This document shows positions 4,878 through 53,485 of a DNA stretch of 64,000 nucleotides, in pieces. Position numbers and translations under genes: made by a program. The DNA is taken from positions 1 to 64,000 of the forward strand of contig JAIMBT010000022.1 of the NCBI GenBank assembly GCA_023511295.1. Reading direction: 5' to 3'. The notes beneath the pieces were generated by a model. That model made no database searches. It saw nothing but the letters and a program-made list of their open reading frames with translations, and had not been told where the DNA came from. This stretch comes from Alicyclobacillus sp. (lineage in GTDB: Bacteria > Bacillota > Bacilli > Alicyclobacillales > Alicyclobacillaceae). The first letter of the stretch is position 1. Each line of letters opens with the position of its first letter.

Positions 4878-5423
4878 GTGGATGCGGGCCTCCGAGCAGC
4901 GCATTGGATGCGCGTCGCCCTAGATCTCGCACGGCAAGCGGCGGCGCTGGGCGAGGTGCCGGTCGGCGCGGTGGTCGTGCGGGGCGAATCGGTCGTTGGA
5001 GCGGCGCACAACTGGCGCGAAACGTGGCGAGATCCCACCGCCCACGCGGAGTTGATTGCGATTCGCGAGGCGAGTCGGCGGCTTGGCGGTTGGCGTCTCG
5101 ACGGGTGTGAACTGTTCGTGACGTTGGAGCCCTGTCCGATGTGTGCCGGCGCCATTGTGTTATCCCGCCTTGACGCGGTCTTCTACGGTGCACCGGACCC
5201 CAAGGGTGGCGCGTTGGCGTCGAAGATGGCGCTGCTCACACCGGGGCTGTGGAACCATCATCCAGAGATATCCGGTGGCATTCTGGCGGACGAGTGTGGT
5301 ATGATACTCAAAGACTTCTTCCGCGGTTTGAGACCGCGAAGAGGAGCATCGCAGAGCCGTTTGCCTGCGGGCGCACGGAGAGATGTCCGAGTGGCCGAAG
5401 GAGCTCGCCTCGAAAGCGAGTAG
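4878..5423 (+). CDS. tadA: tRNA adenosine(34) deaminase
   Basis: TadA deaminates A34 of tRNA-Arg(ACG) to inosine so it can read several codons. The zinc site is intact: HAE at residues 56-58 with the catalytic Glu58, and PCPMC at 85-89. The start is GTG 4878; ATG 4908 is an in-frame alternative. The frame gives 181 residues, about 25 more than usual. After the expected end (FFRGLRPRR) no stop occurs until TAG 5421-5423, which lies inside the downstream tRNA-Ser gene. The last 15 or so codons are therefore encoded by tRNA sequence. Placement before tRNA-Ser, SRP RNA and dnaX matches Bacillus. Confidence 0.95.
   Translation: MDAGLRAAHWMRVALDLARQAAALGEVPVGAVVVRGESVVGAAHNWRETWRDPTAHAELIAIREASRRLGGWRLDGCELFVTLEPCPMCAGAIVLSRLDAVFYGAPDPKGGALASKMALLTPGLWNHHPEISGGILADECGMILKDFFRGLRPRRGASQSRLPAGARRDVRVAEGARLESE
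5297..5305 (+). promoter_or_regulatory. Possible extended -10 for the tRNA-Ser/SRP RNA unit
   Basis: TGGTATGAT inside the 3' part of tadA is identical to the element before the ComFB-like gene. It lies about 70 bases before the tRNA. No -35 is visible. Confidence 0.35.
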
Positions 5424-5466
5424 CCCTGCAAGGGGCTCGTGGGTTCGAATCCCACTCTCTCCGCCA
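5377..5466 (+). tRNA. tRNA-Ser (CGA)
   Basis: This is a 90-base class II tRNA. The acceptor arms GGAGAGA and TCTCTCC pair, the anticodon loop CTCGAAA gives CGA, there is a long variable arm (AGCCCTGCAAGGGGCT), the T loop is TTCGAAT, and CCA is encoded. Its first 47 bases also carry the end of the tadA frame. Confidence 0.97.
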
Positions 5467-5475
5467 CATCTGGTG

Positions 5476-5712
5476 AAGTGTCCAACAGGGTCATGGGAAG
5501 GTGTCCGTTGTGCAAGATTCCGGCGCCCATTTGCTCCATGGCCCTGTTTGACGGAGTCTCAGGCGTGTCATCTGACCAGGGACCAAGTGGGGTCCCATGC
5601 GGCGAAAACTCCCGAACCGTGTCAGGTCCTGACGGAAGCAGCACTAAGGGAGACCTTTCGGGCGACGTGGGCAAGCCTCGCTTGGTTCCTGGTCAGAGGA
5701 CGCGCCTGTTTT
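5476..5712 (+). ncRNA. ffs: SRP RNA, long Bacillus type (scRNA)
   Basis: The S-domain signature GTCAGGTCCTGACGGAAGCAGCACTAAGG is present at about 5621-5650. Long flanking arms pair almost perfectly: CAGGCGTGTCATCTGACCAGG with the reverse of CCTGGTCAGAGGACGCGCCTG, forming helix 5. A 5' Alu-like part (CAACAGGG...CCCTGTTTG) is also visible. Length and position between tadA/tRNA-Ser and dnaX match the Bacillus scRNA. The RNA serves as scaffold of the signal recognition particle with Ffh and HBsu. Both ends are estimates; the T-rich run at 5709-5712 probably ends it. Confidence 0.93.
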
Positions 5713-47023: not shown

Positions 47024-47292
47024 GATGGCGCCGCTTGGGCCGCTGAGGAACCCGGAAGGGCAAGGAATGCGAGTGTCCGGGTCAGAAAGAGTGGCCCGCG
47101 CGTGCGCCATCTCGGGGGTACGCCAGGAAGCGGACGCATGCGATGGCGCCGCTTGGGCCGCTGAGGAACCCGGAGGGGCAAGGGATGCGAGTGTCCGGGT
47201 CAGAAAGAGTGGCCCGCGCGTGCGCCATCTCGGGGTTGAGACTGGAAGCGGACGCATGCGATGGCGCCGCTTGGGCCGCTGAGGAACCCGGA
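47024..47292 (+). repeat. 118-bp tandem repeat, 2.3 copies, hairpin-forming
   Basis: Full units run 47024-47141 and 47142-47259, with a partial third from 47260. The two full units differ at only about eight positions. Each unit can fold on itself: GATGGCGC (47024-47031) pairs with GCGCCATC (47104-47111), GGGCC.CT with AG.GGCCC, and ACCCGGA with TCCGGGT in the centre. The third copy breaks off after GAACCCGGA. Its new junction, ACCCGGACACTCGCA, is the exact reverse complement of a stretch in the full units. No coding potential is convincing on either strand. Confidence 0.9.
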
Positions 47293-49261: not shown

Positions 49262-49315
49262 CCCGGAATGGGATACCGGTGCACCGGCGCATGGCAGATA
49301 CGGACGAAAATCCGA

Positions 49316-49338
49316 ACGGGGGGCACGGCCCCCCGTTT
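49316..49338 (+). terminator. Rho-independent terminator of yabR
   Basis: ACGGGGGG and CCCCCCGT pair around CACGG, followed by TTTCTGTT. Confidence 0.8.
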
Positions 49339-49410
49339 CTGTTGCAGACCGTCGCGTCCGCCGTATAGGCTGGCGGGGTGCCATCGACGATGTCAGGTTG
49401 GAGGGACGAC

Positions 49411-49617
49411 ATGCCCACAGAAACGTATTACCTGGAATACGAATTGAGCGACGGCCAGCGTGTATTTCTGCAATTTGCCGACGAGAACGACCGGGACGGT
49501 TGCCACATCTCCCTGGACTTCTACAAAGCGCAACTCGGCGCTGTCGACGAAGAGGTGTTGGAGCGGATACTTGCGAAGTTCCACGGGCAACGGCTTCTTC
49601 CCGAGACAGGTGCATAG
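49411..49617 (+). CDS. Small hypothetical protein
   Basis: The product is 68 residues. ATG 49411 follows GGAGGGACGAC. The sequence (TYYLEYELSDGQRVFLQFADENDRDGCHISLDFYKAQLG, then DEEVLERILAKFHGQRLL) suggests two or three strands and a helix, acidic overall, soluble. No known motif. It could be a small regulatory or structural protein. It lies alone between yabR and a small membrane protein, and no partner is evident. Confidence 0.75.
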   Translation: MPTETYYLEYELSDGQRVFLQFADENDRDGCHISLDFYKAQLGAVDEEVLERILAKFHGQRLLPETGA

Positions 49618-49690
49618 GGGCGGTGGATCGCCGGACACGGTGGTGCTGCGTCGGACGCGGCAGAAGGTCCTGCAGAATTTCTGAAACCGG

Positions 49691-49719
49691 TTGTTGTCTG
49701 TCCGAAATCCGCATATAAT
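49691..49719 (+). promoter_or_regulatory. Sigma-A promoter of the small membrane protein gene
   Basis: TTGTTG, a 17-base spacer and a perfect TATAAT lie 45 bases before GTG 49764. Confidence 0.7.
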
Positions 49720-49763
49720 TTGGGAGTGCACACTTTTCATCGTCGACGAACGGAGGCGGAATC

Positions 49764-49943
49764 GTGAATCAGTACTTGCACCCGTATGTCGTGGCGTTTT
49801 TCCTCCTGGTGTTCACCGTCATGTCGGTGATTGGGATGGTCCGTCTGTTCCGCCAACGGAACGCCGTGGGAACGGTGTTGCTTCTGCTCTCCACGCTCAT
49901 TTTCGGGTACAGTACCTGGATTGCTGCGACCCTGCAGTCGTAA
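49764..49943 (+). CDS. Small two-TM membrane protein (DUF2759-like)
   Basis: The product is 59 residues. GTG 49764 follows GGAGGCGGAATC. Two hydrophobic helices (YVVAFFLLVFTVMSVIGMV and VGTVLLLLSTLIFGYSTWIAA) flank a short basic loop with FRQRNA. Size and layout resemble the Bacillus DUF2759 proteins; that link rests on pattern only. It has its own promoter and is followed by an inverted repeat that probably ends the transcript. Confidence 0.75.
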   Translation: MNQYLHPYVVAFFLLVFTVMSVIGMVRLFRQRNAVGTVLLLLSTLIFGYSTWIAATLQS

Positions 49944-49981
49944 CGAGGTCGGCACGGCGCATATACGGTATCCGTACATAG

Positions 49982-50021
49982 CAAAGCGACGGCACCCGTA
50001 TCACGGAATGCCGTCGCTTTG
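49982..50021. terminator. Inverted repeat between converging genes
   Basis: CAAAGCGACGGCA and TGCCGTCGCTTTG are exact 13-base arms with a 14-base loop. It sits between the small membrane protein (plus) and cmpA (minus), so it may act as a bidirectional terminator. T tracts are weak on both strands. Confidence 0.55.
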
Positions 50022-50064
50022 ACGTTATCGTATACCGCGCCCAAACAGCCCGCACGCGAGCCGT

Positions 50065-50184
50065 TTATACCGTTCGGCGCTGCGCTGTACGGTAGCGAAA
50101 AAACGCCTGATTCAGCATCTGTATCGCCCGCGTATCTCGATTCTGGAACGCCTTTCGCAGTTGACTTTGAAGCCAGTCCGGCAT
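50065..50184 (-). CDS. cmpA: Cortex morphogenetic protein CmpA
   Basis: The product is only 39 residues. It starts MPDWLQSQLRKAFQNRDTR and continues AIQMLNQAFFRYRTAQ. The pattern M-P-x-W-L-x-x-Q-x-x-K-A-F, then D, then I-x-x-L-N-Q and F-x-Y-R matches Bacillus CmpA (37 residues). ATG 50184 has GGGGTG five bases upstream. CmpA is a sigma-E product that inhibits cortex assembly until the coat base is correctly built and is then degraded by ClpXP. A sigma-E-like promoter lies about 90 bases upstream. Confidence 0.88.
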   Translation of the reverse strand: MPDWLQSQLRKAFQNRDTRAIQMLNQAFFRYRTAQRRTV

Positions 50185-50271
50185 TCCGCCACCCCGTTTC
50201 ATCCAGCTTCACGGCGACCCCCGGCCCGCCCCGCCGGGTCGGCCCGTTGCGTCGGCCGTTTCCCGTACCAC

Positions 50272-50299
50272 AGTGTATGAGGTATCCATCCAATTTGAC
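50272..50299 (-). promoter_or_regulatory. Sigma-E-like promoter of cmpA
   Basis: On the minus strand, TCAAATT is followed after 12 bases by CATACACT, a full match to the sigma-E -10 (CATACAHT). The spacer is slightly shorter than usual and the -35 is imperfect. It lies inside the gap after comEB. Confidence 0.5.
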
Positions 50300-50326
50300 C
50301 ACGGGCGGCCCCTGCCGGACGGCAGC

Positions 50327-50788
50327 TCAGGGTGCCGGCGACGAGCTCTCTAGGTACGACAACTCAATCCCGGCCATCTGAAGCATCTGTTCGCCGAGGG
50401 AATCCGTGTACTTCTCGGCGTAGACCACGCGGACCATCCCGGCCGCAATGATGAGTTTTGCGCAGTTGACGCACGGCGCCGCCGAGACGTAAATGGTCGC
50501 GCCCTCTGTGCTCACGCCGTGCAGCGCGGCTTGGACGATGGCGTTTTGCTCCGCGTGGATGGTGCGGATGCAATGACCGTCCACTATCCAACAGCCGACC
50601 TCCGTGCAGTGGGGCATCCCTGGCGGAGATCCGTTGTAGCCAGTCGTCAGGATGCGTTTGTTGCGGACAATCACAGCGCCCACCTGTCGTCGCAAGCACG
50701 TGGCGCGCTGGGCAATCACGTCTCGAGCCATCATCATGAAGTACTCGTCCCAAGAAGGGCGCTGCCGTTCCGCGTGCAATCCCTCCAT
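50327..50788 (-). CDS. comEB: dCMP/cytidine deaminase family protein (ComEB type)
   Basis: This 153-residue zinc deaminase starts at ATG 50788 with AAGGGGG upstream; the frame extends 49 codons further, without support. Zinc and catalytic motifs are TIHAEQNAIVQ (His and Glu) and APCVNCAK (two Cys). SWDEYFMMMARDVIAQRATCLRRQVGAVIV and GYNGSPPGMPHC, with a further CxxxGCW segment, match the dCMP deaminase branch. It would supply dUMP from dCMP. It is alone on the minus strand, divergent from spoIIE, not near comEA or comEC. Confidence 0.93.
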   Translation of the reverse strand: MEGLHAERQRPSWDEYFMMMARDVIAQRATCLRRQVGAVIVRNKRILTTGYNGSPPGMPHCTEVGCWIVDGHCIRTIHAEQNAIVQAALHGVSTEGATIYVSAAPCVNCAKLIIAAGMVRVVYAEKYTDSLGEQMLQMAGIELSYLESSSPAP

Positions 50789-50957
50789 CGATGCGACCCC
50801 CTTACGTCTCCCACCACCAGACCGGGAGCACTCGAACGGATTCGTCACATTCCTTCCCGCTGTTCTTATTATAGGGCTAGTTTTTCCCCGATACATCGGC
50901 GTTGGTGTCGGGCCCCACAGATCCTGTCGGAACATTTCCCGTGAACCCCGACCGCGT

Positions 50958-50990
50958 TTGACAAACTTATCAGAACACGGCTTCTATAAT
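50958..50990 (+). promoter_or_regulatory. Spo0A-type spoIIE promoter with 21-bp spacer
   Basis: A perfect TTGACA and a perfect TATAAT are separated by 21 bases, not 17. The Bacillus spoIIE promoter has the same unusual spacing and needs Spo0A~P. A TGTCGGAA site at 50925-50932 and the TGACAAA overlapping the -35 resemble 0A boxes. Confidence 0.85.
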
Positions 50991-51025
50991 AAGCCCTACA
51001 CATTGAGCTCCGGGAGGGAACCGAA

Positions 51026-53485
51026 ATGGCGTATGATGGAGAACCCATTTGGCACGCGGTTCAGTCGCCTGTTGAAGCAAAGACGCGCGGGCGAATTTGG
51101 CGGGCAAGGTCACGCACCACCCTTCGCACCGTCTTGCTGATGGCAGTGGGCGTCTTGCTCGGTCGTGCCACCATCGTGCACAACATTGCCCCCTTCGCGT
51201 TGGCGTATTTCGTCATGGTCACCGAACTGGGCGGCAAACGCCAGCGGTTAACTGCGTGGGCAGCTTTGATTGGATCCTTCTGGCAAGGGGGTCTCCCGGA
51301 TGCCGGGGTGGTTGCTGTGGAATTCGCTGTCTATCTGGGGCTGCGGACGGCGTTCTTTCGCCGTCGGTCGCTCGATCTGCACTGGGTTCCCTTCATCGGC
51401 GGAACCATCGACGTCGCCGTTCGCCTGGCGGTCGTCGGGTCGGTCTGGACACGGTACGACGTGTGGATGGCACTGGCCGAGGGTGCGTTGGTCACCATCC
51501 TGGCGCTGGTGTTCATTCAGTCACTGCCGCTCATCCTCGGCCGCGAACGCGCGCGCACCCTTCGGCATGAAGAGTTGATGAGCCTCACCATCCTAGCCGG
51601 TTCGGTGGTGAGTGGCCTGTCCGGGATATCGGTGCACGCCGTGGTGCCGATGAACGTGTTGATTGATTGGTTGGTGTTGTTGCTCGCTGCAGCGGGGGGC
51701 GCCGGTGTGGGCGCTGCCTCCGCTGTAACCCTCGGCGTTCTCGCGGTGTTGACAGGTGGTATGACCATCTCCGGTGTTGCCGTGCTCGGCTTTGCTGGAC
51801 TGCTTGGCGGACTGCTGCGGGAGGCGCGGCGTTTTTGGGTGGCCATCGCGTTCTTGCTGAGCCTCATCCTCCTGTCCGCAGGGATGGAAACGTCCTGGGC
51901 GACGGCTTGGCCGACCTGGGCGGCGGCTGGGATTGCCAGTCTTCTGTTCCTGTTGACGCCGAAGTCTGTGCGCTCCGAACTTGCCGCGTACATGCCGGGG
52001 ACGCTCGAGCACCACTTGTCCGAGCAGGCGCGCGTCCGGAGGGTGAGAACGCTACTGTCGGAACGCATTGCGGACCTCGGATCTGTTTTTGACGAGCTCT
52101 CTCGCACCTTTGCGGATACGGTCGACAGTCCCTTGCTGTCCGCGCAGCAGTTGCTGGACCACACGGTCGCTTCTGCGGCAACGCGCGTCTGTACGGGTTG
52201 CGCGCTGCGGTCCAAGTGCTGGGACAAAGAGAGCTACTCCACGTACCAGGCCATCACGCACACCGTGGAGCGGCTGGAGGCTGGGCGCGGTACCAATGTC
52301 CTCCCATCACCTGACCTGAAAGACCGGTGCATCCGGGTGGACGCGATGATGCACACCCTGCGCTACCAGTTGGAGATCACAGATCGCGATGCGAAGTGGA
52401 TGGACAAGCTCCGGGAACAGCGCGGACTCGTCTGCGCACAGTTGGGTGGCGTGGCGAACGTCATCCGGTCCGTGGCGCAGGAATTGGAGCGGGGCAACGC
52501 GTCCTCGATGGCCGGCGAGGAGCAGATCCTGGCTGCGCTCGAACAGCTCGGGCTGTATGTGGACCACGTGCACATCGTCAGTTTGGACCCCGGGCGAGTC
52601 GAGGTGGAAGTGACGCAGCCCTCCAAGGGGGCGTACGAGAACTCGGTTCGGATGATTGCCCCCCTGCTCTCTGGCGTGGTCGGAGAGCACATTACGGTTC
52701 GGCATGACGGTCCACTCCCGGAATCCGGCCCGTGTACCAGCGTATTCACGTCGGCTCGCCTGTTCGACGTCCAAACGGCAGTGGCGACGGTGGCGCGAGA
52801 CGGCCGAACCATCTCCGGCGACTCATACACCAGTTCGGACCTGGGCAACGGCCGCTTTGCGGTCGTCGTGAGCGACGGAATGGGCAACGGGGAGCGGGCG
52901 CGGAGCGAGTCCCGCGCAGCAGTGGAACTCCTGAAGAAGTTGATGAAAGCGGGCTTTGACGAACAGCTCGCCATCCAGACGGTCAACTCGACGCTGTTGC
53001 TGCGTAGTCGCGAGGAGATCTTCACGACGCTTGATCTCGCGCTCATCGACCTCTACTCCGCTCGCGCTCAACTGTTGAAGGTTGGGTCGGCTCCGAGTTT
53101 CGTGCGGCACGATAAGTCGGTTCGGACCATCCGCGGCGCCAACGTACCCATCGGCATCCTGCAGGACATCGAGGTGCAGTCGATTCACGAGCAGTTTCGC
53201 CATGGTGACCTGCTGATCTTGATGTCCGACGGCGTCTACGACGCGCCGCAACAGGTGCCGGACAAGGACGAGTGGTTCCGCCGGCAGATTGCCAGGCTGG
53301 AGACGGATGACCCGCAGGCGGTCGCGGACACGTTGCTCGAGTCTGCCATCCGCTTGAACAACGGTGAAATCCGCGACGACATGACGGTGGTCGCCGCACG
53401 TATCTGCAATCGCCAGCCGGAATGGGCGTCCATCAAGCTTCCGGGTATCACCGGCATCCGCAGCCGCCGGAAGCGCGGTGCGTAG
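51026..53485 (+). CDS. spoIIE: Stage II sporulation protein E (PP2C phosphatase)
   Basis: This 819-residue membrane phosphatase dephosphorylates SpoIIAA-P and so activates sigma-F in the forespore; it also acts at the asymmetric septum with FtsZ. ATG 51026 follows GGGAGGG. Residues 30-320 contain about ten membrane helices. A central domain has a cysteine pair (CTGCALRSKCW). The PP2C domain starts near residue 590, with ARDGRTISGDSYTSSDLGNGRFAVVVSDGMGNGERARSES, FTTLDLALIDLYSA, GDLLILMSDGVYDAP and RDDMTVVAARI supplying the metal-binding Asp residues. Its promoter shows the Spo0A-type spacer. Confidence 0.97.
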   Translation: MAYDGEPIWHAVQSPVEAKTRGRIWRARSRTTLRTVLLMAVGVLLGRATIVHNIAPFALAYFVMVTELGGKRQRLTAWAALIGSFWQGGLPDAGVVAVEFAVYLGLRTAFFRRRSLDLHWVPFIGGTIDVAVRLAVVGSVWTRYDVWMALAEGALVTILALVFIQSLPLILGRERARTLRHEELMSLTILAGSVVSGLSGISVHAVVPMNVLIDWLVLLLAAAGGAGVGAASAVTLGVLAVLTGGMTISGVAVLGFAGLLGGLLREARRFWVAIAFLLSLILLSAGMETSWATAWPTWAAAGIASLLFLLTPKSVRSELAAYMPGTLEHHLSEQARVRRVRTLLSERIADLGSVFDELSRTFADTVDSPLLSAQQLLDHTVASAATRVCTGCALRSKCWDKESYSTYQAITHTVERLEAGRGTNVLPSPDLKDRCIRVDAMMHTLRYQLEITDRDAKWMDKLREQRGLVCAQLGGVANVIRSVAQELERGNASSMAGEEQILAALEQLGLYVDHVHIVSLDPGRVEVEVTQPSKGAYENSVRMIAPLLSGVVGEHITVRHDGPLPESGPCTSVFTSARLFDVQTAVATVARDGRTISGDSYTSSDLGNGRFAVVVSDGMGNGERARSESRAAVELLKKLMKAGFDEQLAIQTVNSTLLLRSREEIFTTLDLALIDLYSARAQLLKVGSAPSFVRHDKSVRTIRGANVPIGILQDIEVQSIHEQFRHGDLLILMSDGVYDAPQQVPDKDEWFRRQIARLETDDPQAVADTLLESAIRLNNGEIRDDMTVVAARICNRQPEWASIKLPGITGIRSRRKRGA

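Follow-up and report, generated by a model that had tools for sequence, protein, structure and literature searches.

A probable Spo0A-activated sigma-A promoter in front of spoIIE in Alicyclobacillus, with a 21- or 22-bp register retained among relatives

The promoter considered here lies in a 64-kb stretch of Alicyclobacillus DNA, hereafter the window, and stands in front of spoIIE, the gene for stage II sporulation protein E. The predicted SpoIIE scores 625.1 bits on the family model, whose cut-off is 490.8, and the nearest SpoIIE proteins, from three genomes, are 69-71% identical to it. Family matches place yabQ upstream, together with an S1-domain protein in the position of yabR, and tilS and ftsH downstream; a PrkT-related kinase, also downstream, scores below its model's cut-off, and a family search with the ORF in the yabS position gave no match. 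By their position, the remaining neighbours fit the gene order of B. subtilis. A deaminase gene sits between the S1-domain gene and spoIIE, and a minus-strand TATAAT at 50868-50873 may be its -10 element; the stretch of about 1 kb from the S1-domain gene to the deaminase (49262-50326) holds no convincing gene in the ORF list. The features of the region, in window coordinates, are these:

50327-50785, minus strand: divergent ComEB-related deaminase (163.9 bits, under the model's cut-off of 219.45), outside the promoter
50906-50912, plus strand: possible far upstream Spo0A box TGTCGGG, 52 bp before the hexamer
50925-50932, plus strand: putative distal Spo0A box TGTCGGAA, starting 33 bp before the hexamer; its TGTCGGA is TGTCGAA but for one letter
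50957-50963, minus strand: putative proximal Spo0A box TGTCAAA (TTTGACA on the plus strand), with A rather than G at box position 5
50958-50963, plus strand: -35-like hexamer TTGACA, overlapping the proximal Spo0A box
50964-50984, plus strand: spacer of 21 bp with AACTT at its start, of which positions 1, 2 and 4 are conserved, beyond the hexamer
50985-50990, plus strand: sigma-A -10 element TATAAT, assigned from the sequence and from relatives
51012-51018, plus strand: likely ribosome-binding site GGGAGGG
51026-53485, plus strand: spoIIE, stage II sporulation protein E, 819 amino acids (NCBIfam TIGR02865 equivalog, E 1.5e-187)

The original prediction had described two perfect hexamers 21 bp apart, and this proved correct: TTGACA at 50958-50963 and TATAAT at 50985-50990 are separated by exactly 21 bp on the plus strand, and 35 bp lie between the end of TATAAT and the spoIIE ATG at 51026. 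The spacer is not the 16-18 bp of an ordinary sigma-A promoter. A conventional -35 was sought 17 bp from TATAAT, where CAAACT stands, which is not -35-like, and in place of the TGN of an extended -10 the three letters before TATAAT are TTC. The two window boxes, the bottom-strand TGTCAAA lying over the hexamer and, 33 bp further up, TGTCGGA, are each one letter away from TGTCGAA, as judged by sequence only. With hexamers in the 21-22 bp range and boxes at and above the -35, the site resembles the promoters of the spoIIE/spoIIG type, and from its position it would drive spoIIE.

The arrangement is rare in its own genome. In 3.43 Mb, TTGACA-N21-TATAAT occurs once, at the spoIIE site, where about 0.036 occurrences would be expected from the base composition of the window. 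Perfect TTGACA/TATAAT pairs with spacers of 11-27 bp number 13 in the whole genome: six at 17 bp, three at 18 bp, and one each at 14, 19, 21 and 27 bp. A genome search with GACANNNTTN(16-17)TATAMT returned spoIIE, spoIIG and one extra match, of the GACA type and with TATACT, which lies at C37:79680-79710, some 1.3 kb downstream of spo0A. Among relatives a recurrent match to GACATGCTTTCACCTCC was set aside, as it looks like a gene start on the opposite strand.

Conservation was followed in 227 regions upstream of spoIIE: 41 from the window's family, in which the window genome is the sole member of its genus sampled, 16 from a sister family, 90 from the wider Bacilli and 80 from a named set. Sites were located by GACA and the -10 only, with the spacing left free from 17 to 25 bp, and the first two hexamer letters were left unscored because bias was to be avoided. 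The sister family was represented by 16 of its 18 genomes, with G411 and G417, whose SpoIIE matches are fragmentary, excluded. The 90 wider Bacilli regions comprise the 30 best-scoring and 60 chosen for family spread among the matches listed, before their upstream DNA was looked at; 238 genomes lay above the cut-off. Some named-set genomes duplicate others in the first set, and identical sites were collapsed to leave 197. Ten of the 227 regions were dropped, including G030, the duplicate L181 (little upstream DNA) and L202 (match from contig base 38); G030, an A. tolerans genome also present as L008 and L181, has no such site in the 205 bp upstream of its SpoIIE match. Possibly mis-set sites, with weak -10s, are those of G049 (family f11), G385, G350 and G199 (f42), G333 and G160.

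In 217 of the 227 regions the best site had a spacing of 21 or 22 bp, in four of them as one of tied bests, and the 197 distinct sites divide into 158 at 21 bp and 39 at 22 bp. The top score was reached by 182 of the 227 real regions as against none of the 227 reversed strings; 54 of the reversed strings passed the lower threshold (15), just 8 of these at 21 or 22 bp. Within the window's family both hexamers are perfect before spoIIE in 37 of 41 genomes, 23 with 21 bp and 14 with 22 bp, and three further genomes have one or two mismatches at a spacing of 21 or 22 bp. These counts support the proposal that the register is under strong selection. They do not bear out a strict 21 bp, since 22 bp is found in 15 of the 40 sites of the window's own family. 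Sites with TT divide into 92 at 21 bp and 23 at 22 bp, and those without it into 66 and 16; as the distance is retained with or without TTGACA, it is not kept merely for a -35. Of the 197 distinct sites, 152 have a perfect distal TGTCG 32-34 bp upstream of the hexamer, whichever the spacer length, and the length change therefore lies between the hexamer and the -10.

It had also been claimed that ideal hexamers are kept, and this holds in the window's family, where both T's of the hexamer are retained in 38 of 40 sites and a nearby spacer base is variable, but not generally, for in many lineages the first T is free and the AA next to the hexamer, on its outside, stays. In the weighted alignment of the 197 Bacilli sites the first T of the hexamer carries 0.48 bits and the second 1.76, while columns outside the -35 carry 1.39 bits for the base preceding the hexamer and 1.63, 1.73 and 1.52 for spacer positions 1, 2 and 4. 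Spacer position 7, in the same alignment, carries 0.02 bits. The invariance of GACA and of the -10 is partly circular, because both were scored in finding the sites. The hexamers are TTGACA in 115 sites, CTGACA in 52 (mostly from the named set, mainly Paenibacillus), GTGACA in 15, ATGACA in 10, GCGACA in 3, and CCGACA and ACGACA in 1 each. With the named set excluded, at least one site without the first T or without TT was found in 12 of 36 Bacilli families, and TTGACA alone in 24. The second T is present in 96% (weighted) of the Bacilli sites, and all five changes of it are to C, the letter of the Spo0A consensus, although one of these sites (G049) may be mis-set. Taken together, this suggests that what persists is the GACA core at 21 or 22 bp and the putative TGTCG box about 33 bp upstream, rather than the letters of a -35.

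From the base that precedes the hexamer through GACA, the conserved letters match the TGTCGAA box save for the second T, which reads as A at box position 5; that preceding base and the first T also belong to the Spo0A consensus. PMC3485338 gives the consensus as TGTCGAA with contacts to G2, C4 and G5, and reports that single changes in PabrB, G5A among them, cut binding by the Spo0A DNA-binding domain of C. difficile about tenfold. The same paper describes only near-consensus boxes at B. subtilis spoIIE and low affinity of the C. difficile domain for spoIIE and spoIIGA DNA, and PMC7643835 gives the degenerate C. difficile box there as TACGACA. This box has the same GACA core as our spoIIE sites. 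The weak proximal box would fit a high threshold for Spo0A~P, and the second T would fit a retained -35 contact equally well. Of the 40 family sites, 15, including that of the window, have a third TGTCG at a distance of exactly 52 bp upstream of the hexamer, one more has it displaced by 1 bp, and 21 have no TGTCG at 45-70 bp before the hexamer.

The spoIIG promoters were compared in 100 regions, from 30 of the 40 matching genomes of the window's family and 70 taken from 179 matching genomes (20 of the 179 in the window's family). Seven regions were dropped and 93 of the 100 gave a site at 21 or 22 bp, 15 of them tied bests resolved to that spacing; 87 sites are distinct. Their hexamers are CCGACA (24), TAGACA (20), TTGACA (14), CTGACA (9), TCAACA (9) and others, so that 73 of the 87 lack TTGACA. 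In the window's family the best GACA core was 21 bp from the -10 in all 30 regions scanned, and its 25 distinct sites read CCGACA in 24 cases and TCGACA in one. The spoIIG promoter of the window's own genome, on contig C36 upstream of spoIIGA, is CCGACA-21-TATACT. Read on the other strand, the TTCCGACA of this promoter is identical to the distal spoIIE box.

The register extends to other classes of the phylum. Among 40 genomes taken from the best-scoring of the 104 with a SpoIIE match outside the Bacilli, eight regions were dropped and 32 had a clear spoIIE site, 30 at 21 bp and two at 22 bp, and a perfect distal TGTCG stands at 32-33 bp in 20 of the 32; with the strings reversed, one of 40 reached the required score. 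The hexamers are here ATGACA (9), CTGACA (8), TTGACA (6), CCGACA (3) and others, the second letter being T in 23 of 32 and A in one. The match to the box is poorer in these classes because the base before the hexamer (0.12 bits) and the first hexamer letter (0.27 bits) are little conserved there.

As a control we used the rpmH/rnpA promoter in 30 of the 40 genomes of the window's family with a match. The best site lay at 17-18 bp in 25 of the 30, and all 25 have TT, partly by construction because the control scan scored the whole hexamer; in three the last A is replaced by T. The first four spacer columns, which were unscored, carry 0.28, 0.05, 0.00 and 0.40 bits. This ordinary promoter shows the opposite pattern to spoIIE, with TT kept and the start of the spacer free.

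We consider it probable, on this comparative evidence, that the window site is a sigma-A promoter of the spoIIE/spoIIG type, activated by Spo0A~P, with one box on the hexamer and another distal to it, in which the distances and not, in general, the letters of a -35 have been selected. By analogy with B. subtilis spoIIE and spoIIG, where Spo0A-dependent activation of sigma-A is known, such activation is very likely at the window's spoIIE. Spo0A~P would bind the bottom-strand TGTCAAA that overlaps the -35-like hexamer, and also the distal box, about three helical turns upstream. Region 4 of sigma would be unable to hold both hexamers at once, because the box core is 21-22 bp from the -10 and not 17. 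Spo0A on the -35-like site could then put region 4 in register with the -10, some 4-5 bp further downstream; a shift of 4-5 bp downstream by Spo0A~P is the model for B. subtilis spoIIG. Selection would preserve both the interval of about 33 bp between the distal box and the hexamer and that of 21 or 22 bp between the GACA core and the -10. Because the proximal box has a binding-weakening A at position 5, spoIIE may fire only at high Spo0A~P. Genes with high and low thresholds for Spo0A were reportedly distinguished by Fujita et al. in 2005. Both proteins are encoded in the window's own genome with matching DNA-binding parts: Spo0A (383 bits) has a C-terminal part close to the solved entry 1lq1, and the last 58 residues in the alignment of SigA with the SigA chain of 7ckq, which we take to be that of B. 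subtilis, are identical. Positions 356 (K) and 359 (H) of that chain, presumably Spo0A contacts, fall within the identical stretch. The original prediction had derived Spo0A control from perfect hexamers held at a defective spacing; the control itself is well supported, while the reason given for it was only partly right.

A second explanation, which is compatible with the first, is that TTGACA is a working -35 at this site, that region 4 is held on it unproductively until Spo0A~P displaces it, and that the hexamer itself is selected. Since both T's are kept in 38 of the 40 sites of the window's family, TTGACA may double as a -35 there, and the families with TTGACA alone and the retention of the second T, although the Spo0A consensus wants C, point the same way. 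In chemical mapping of B. subtilis spoIIG, Kumar and Moran (2008) are said to have found region 4 at the -35 when Spo0A was absent and 4 bp further downstream when it was present. According to PMC12090719, Spo0A~P acts at spoIIG after closed-complex formation. As a general rule, however, this explanation does not agree with the 12 of 36 families in which spoIIE sites without the first T have the same spacing, with the spoIIG sites, most of which lack TT, or with the scarcity of TTGACA outside the Bacilli, and the first T and the base preceding it belong to the Spo0A consensus as well. We regard a -35 of this kind at the window site as a serious possibility without leaning towards it. A bolder and rather doubtful proposal is that the 21-22 bp register from GACA to the -10, common to spoIIE and spoIIG and accompanied at spoIIE by the distal box about 33 bp upstream, is ancestral, predates the divergence of Bacilli from the other classes and never needed a -35. 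Perfect TTGACA would then be a later overlay for a polymerase parked in advance, and the second T, the one letter on which the box and a -35 differ, would set the threshold of spoIIE.

It is very improbable that spoIIE is driven by an ordinary promoter elsewhere, with the 21-bp site incidental. The 17-bp pair GTCACA/TATTAT at 50844-50872 was the only match in a consensus scan of 50700-51100, but it has 9 of 12 letters, with 0.2 such matches expected by chance, and its end is next to the divergent gene, 153 bp short of the ATG, whereas the best site of most relatives is at 21 or 22 bp. It is hardly credible that the pattern reflects chance, or common descent without function among relatives not yet diverged: some rows are closely related and some genomes were present in both the named and unnamed sets before collapsing to 197, but spacer position 7 carries almost no information in the same alignment, and the register recurs in other classes and at spoIIG.

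Promoters of the kind that we favour for the window, activated by Spo0A~P at a shifted register, are already known. York et al. in 1992 reportedly described the B. subtilis spoIIE promoter with sigma-A hexamers 21 bp apart and Spo0A boxes around the -35, an arrangement like that of the window. Of the seven distinct spoIIE sites in family f15, whose members we take for Bacillus relatives, six have TTGACA at 21 bp and one at 22 bp; a GTCGAA box lies upstream. The window differs from B. subtilis in its distal box, TGTCGGAA, and in the adjoining divergent deaminase, and its relatives show 22 bp and hexamers without TT. B. subtilis spoIIG resembles the window in the Spo0A box over a -35-like site, the 21/22-bp register and the sigma-A -10; spoIIG differs from the window's spoIIE in its -10, TATACT, and, in the window's family, in the hexamer CCGACA, which would leave little of a -35 on which polymerase could be parked at the spoIIG promoters of that family. 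Chen et al. in 2006 are said to have described a B. subtilis promoter activated by Spo0A through an extended -10, at which a good -35 is not needed; unlike that promoter, the window site has no TG extended -10 before TATAAT. In the literature searched, which covered few primary papers on B. subtilis, no comparative study of the spoIIE and spoIIG promoters was found. What the present comparison suggests in addition is that the register and the box core, and not the -35 letters, have been kept across the sampled phylum.

Through spoIIE, Spo0A is connected with the first cell-specific sigma factor, and the promoter of this gene therefore times commitment to sporulation. The comparison separates the letters of the -35 from those of the Spo0A box, which are fused in B. 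subtilis. Natural promoters without TT and with the same register make it testable whether repositioning of pre-bound polymerase is essential or an elaboration. A perfect hexamer need not be a -35 where the box of an activator has the same letters, and this calls for caution. Elsewhere in the window, a unit of 118 bp is repeated 2.3 times with a 95% match at 47024-47292, in the gap preceding a yabP-like ORF, and a bacterial small SRP RNA (Rfam RF00169) lies at 5586-5685, directly after a tRNA-Ser at 5377-5466.
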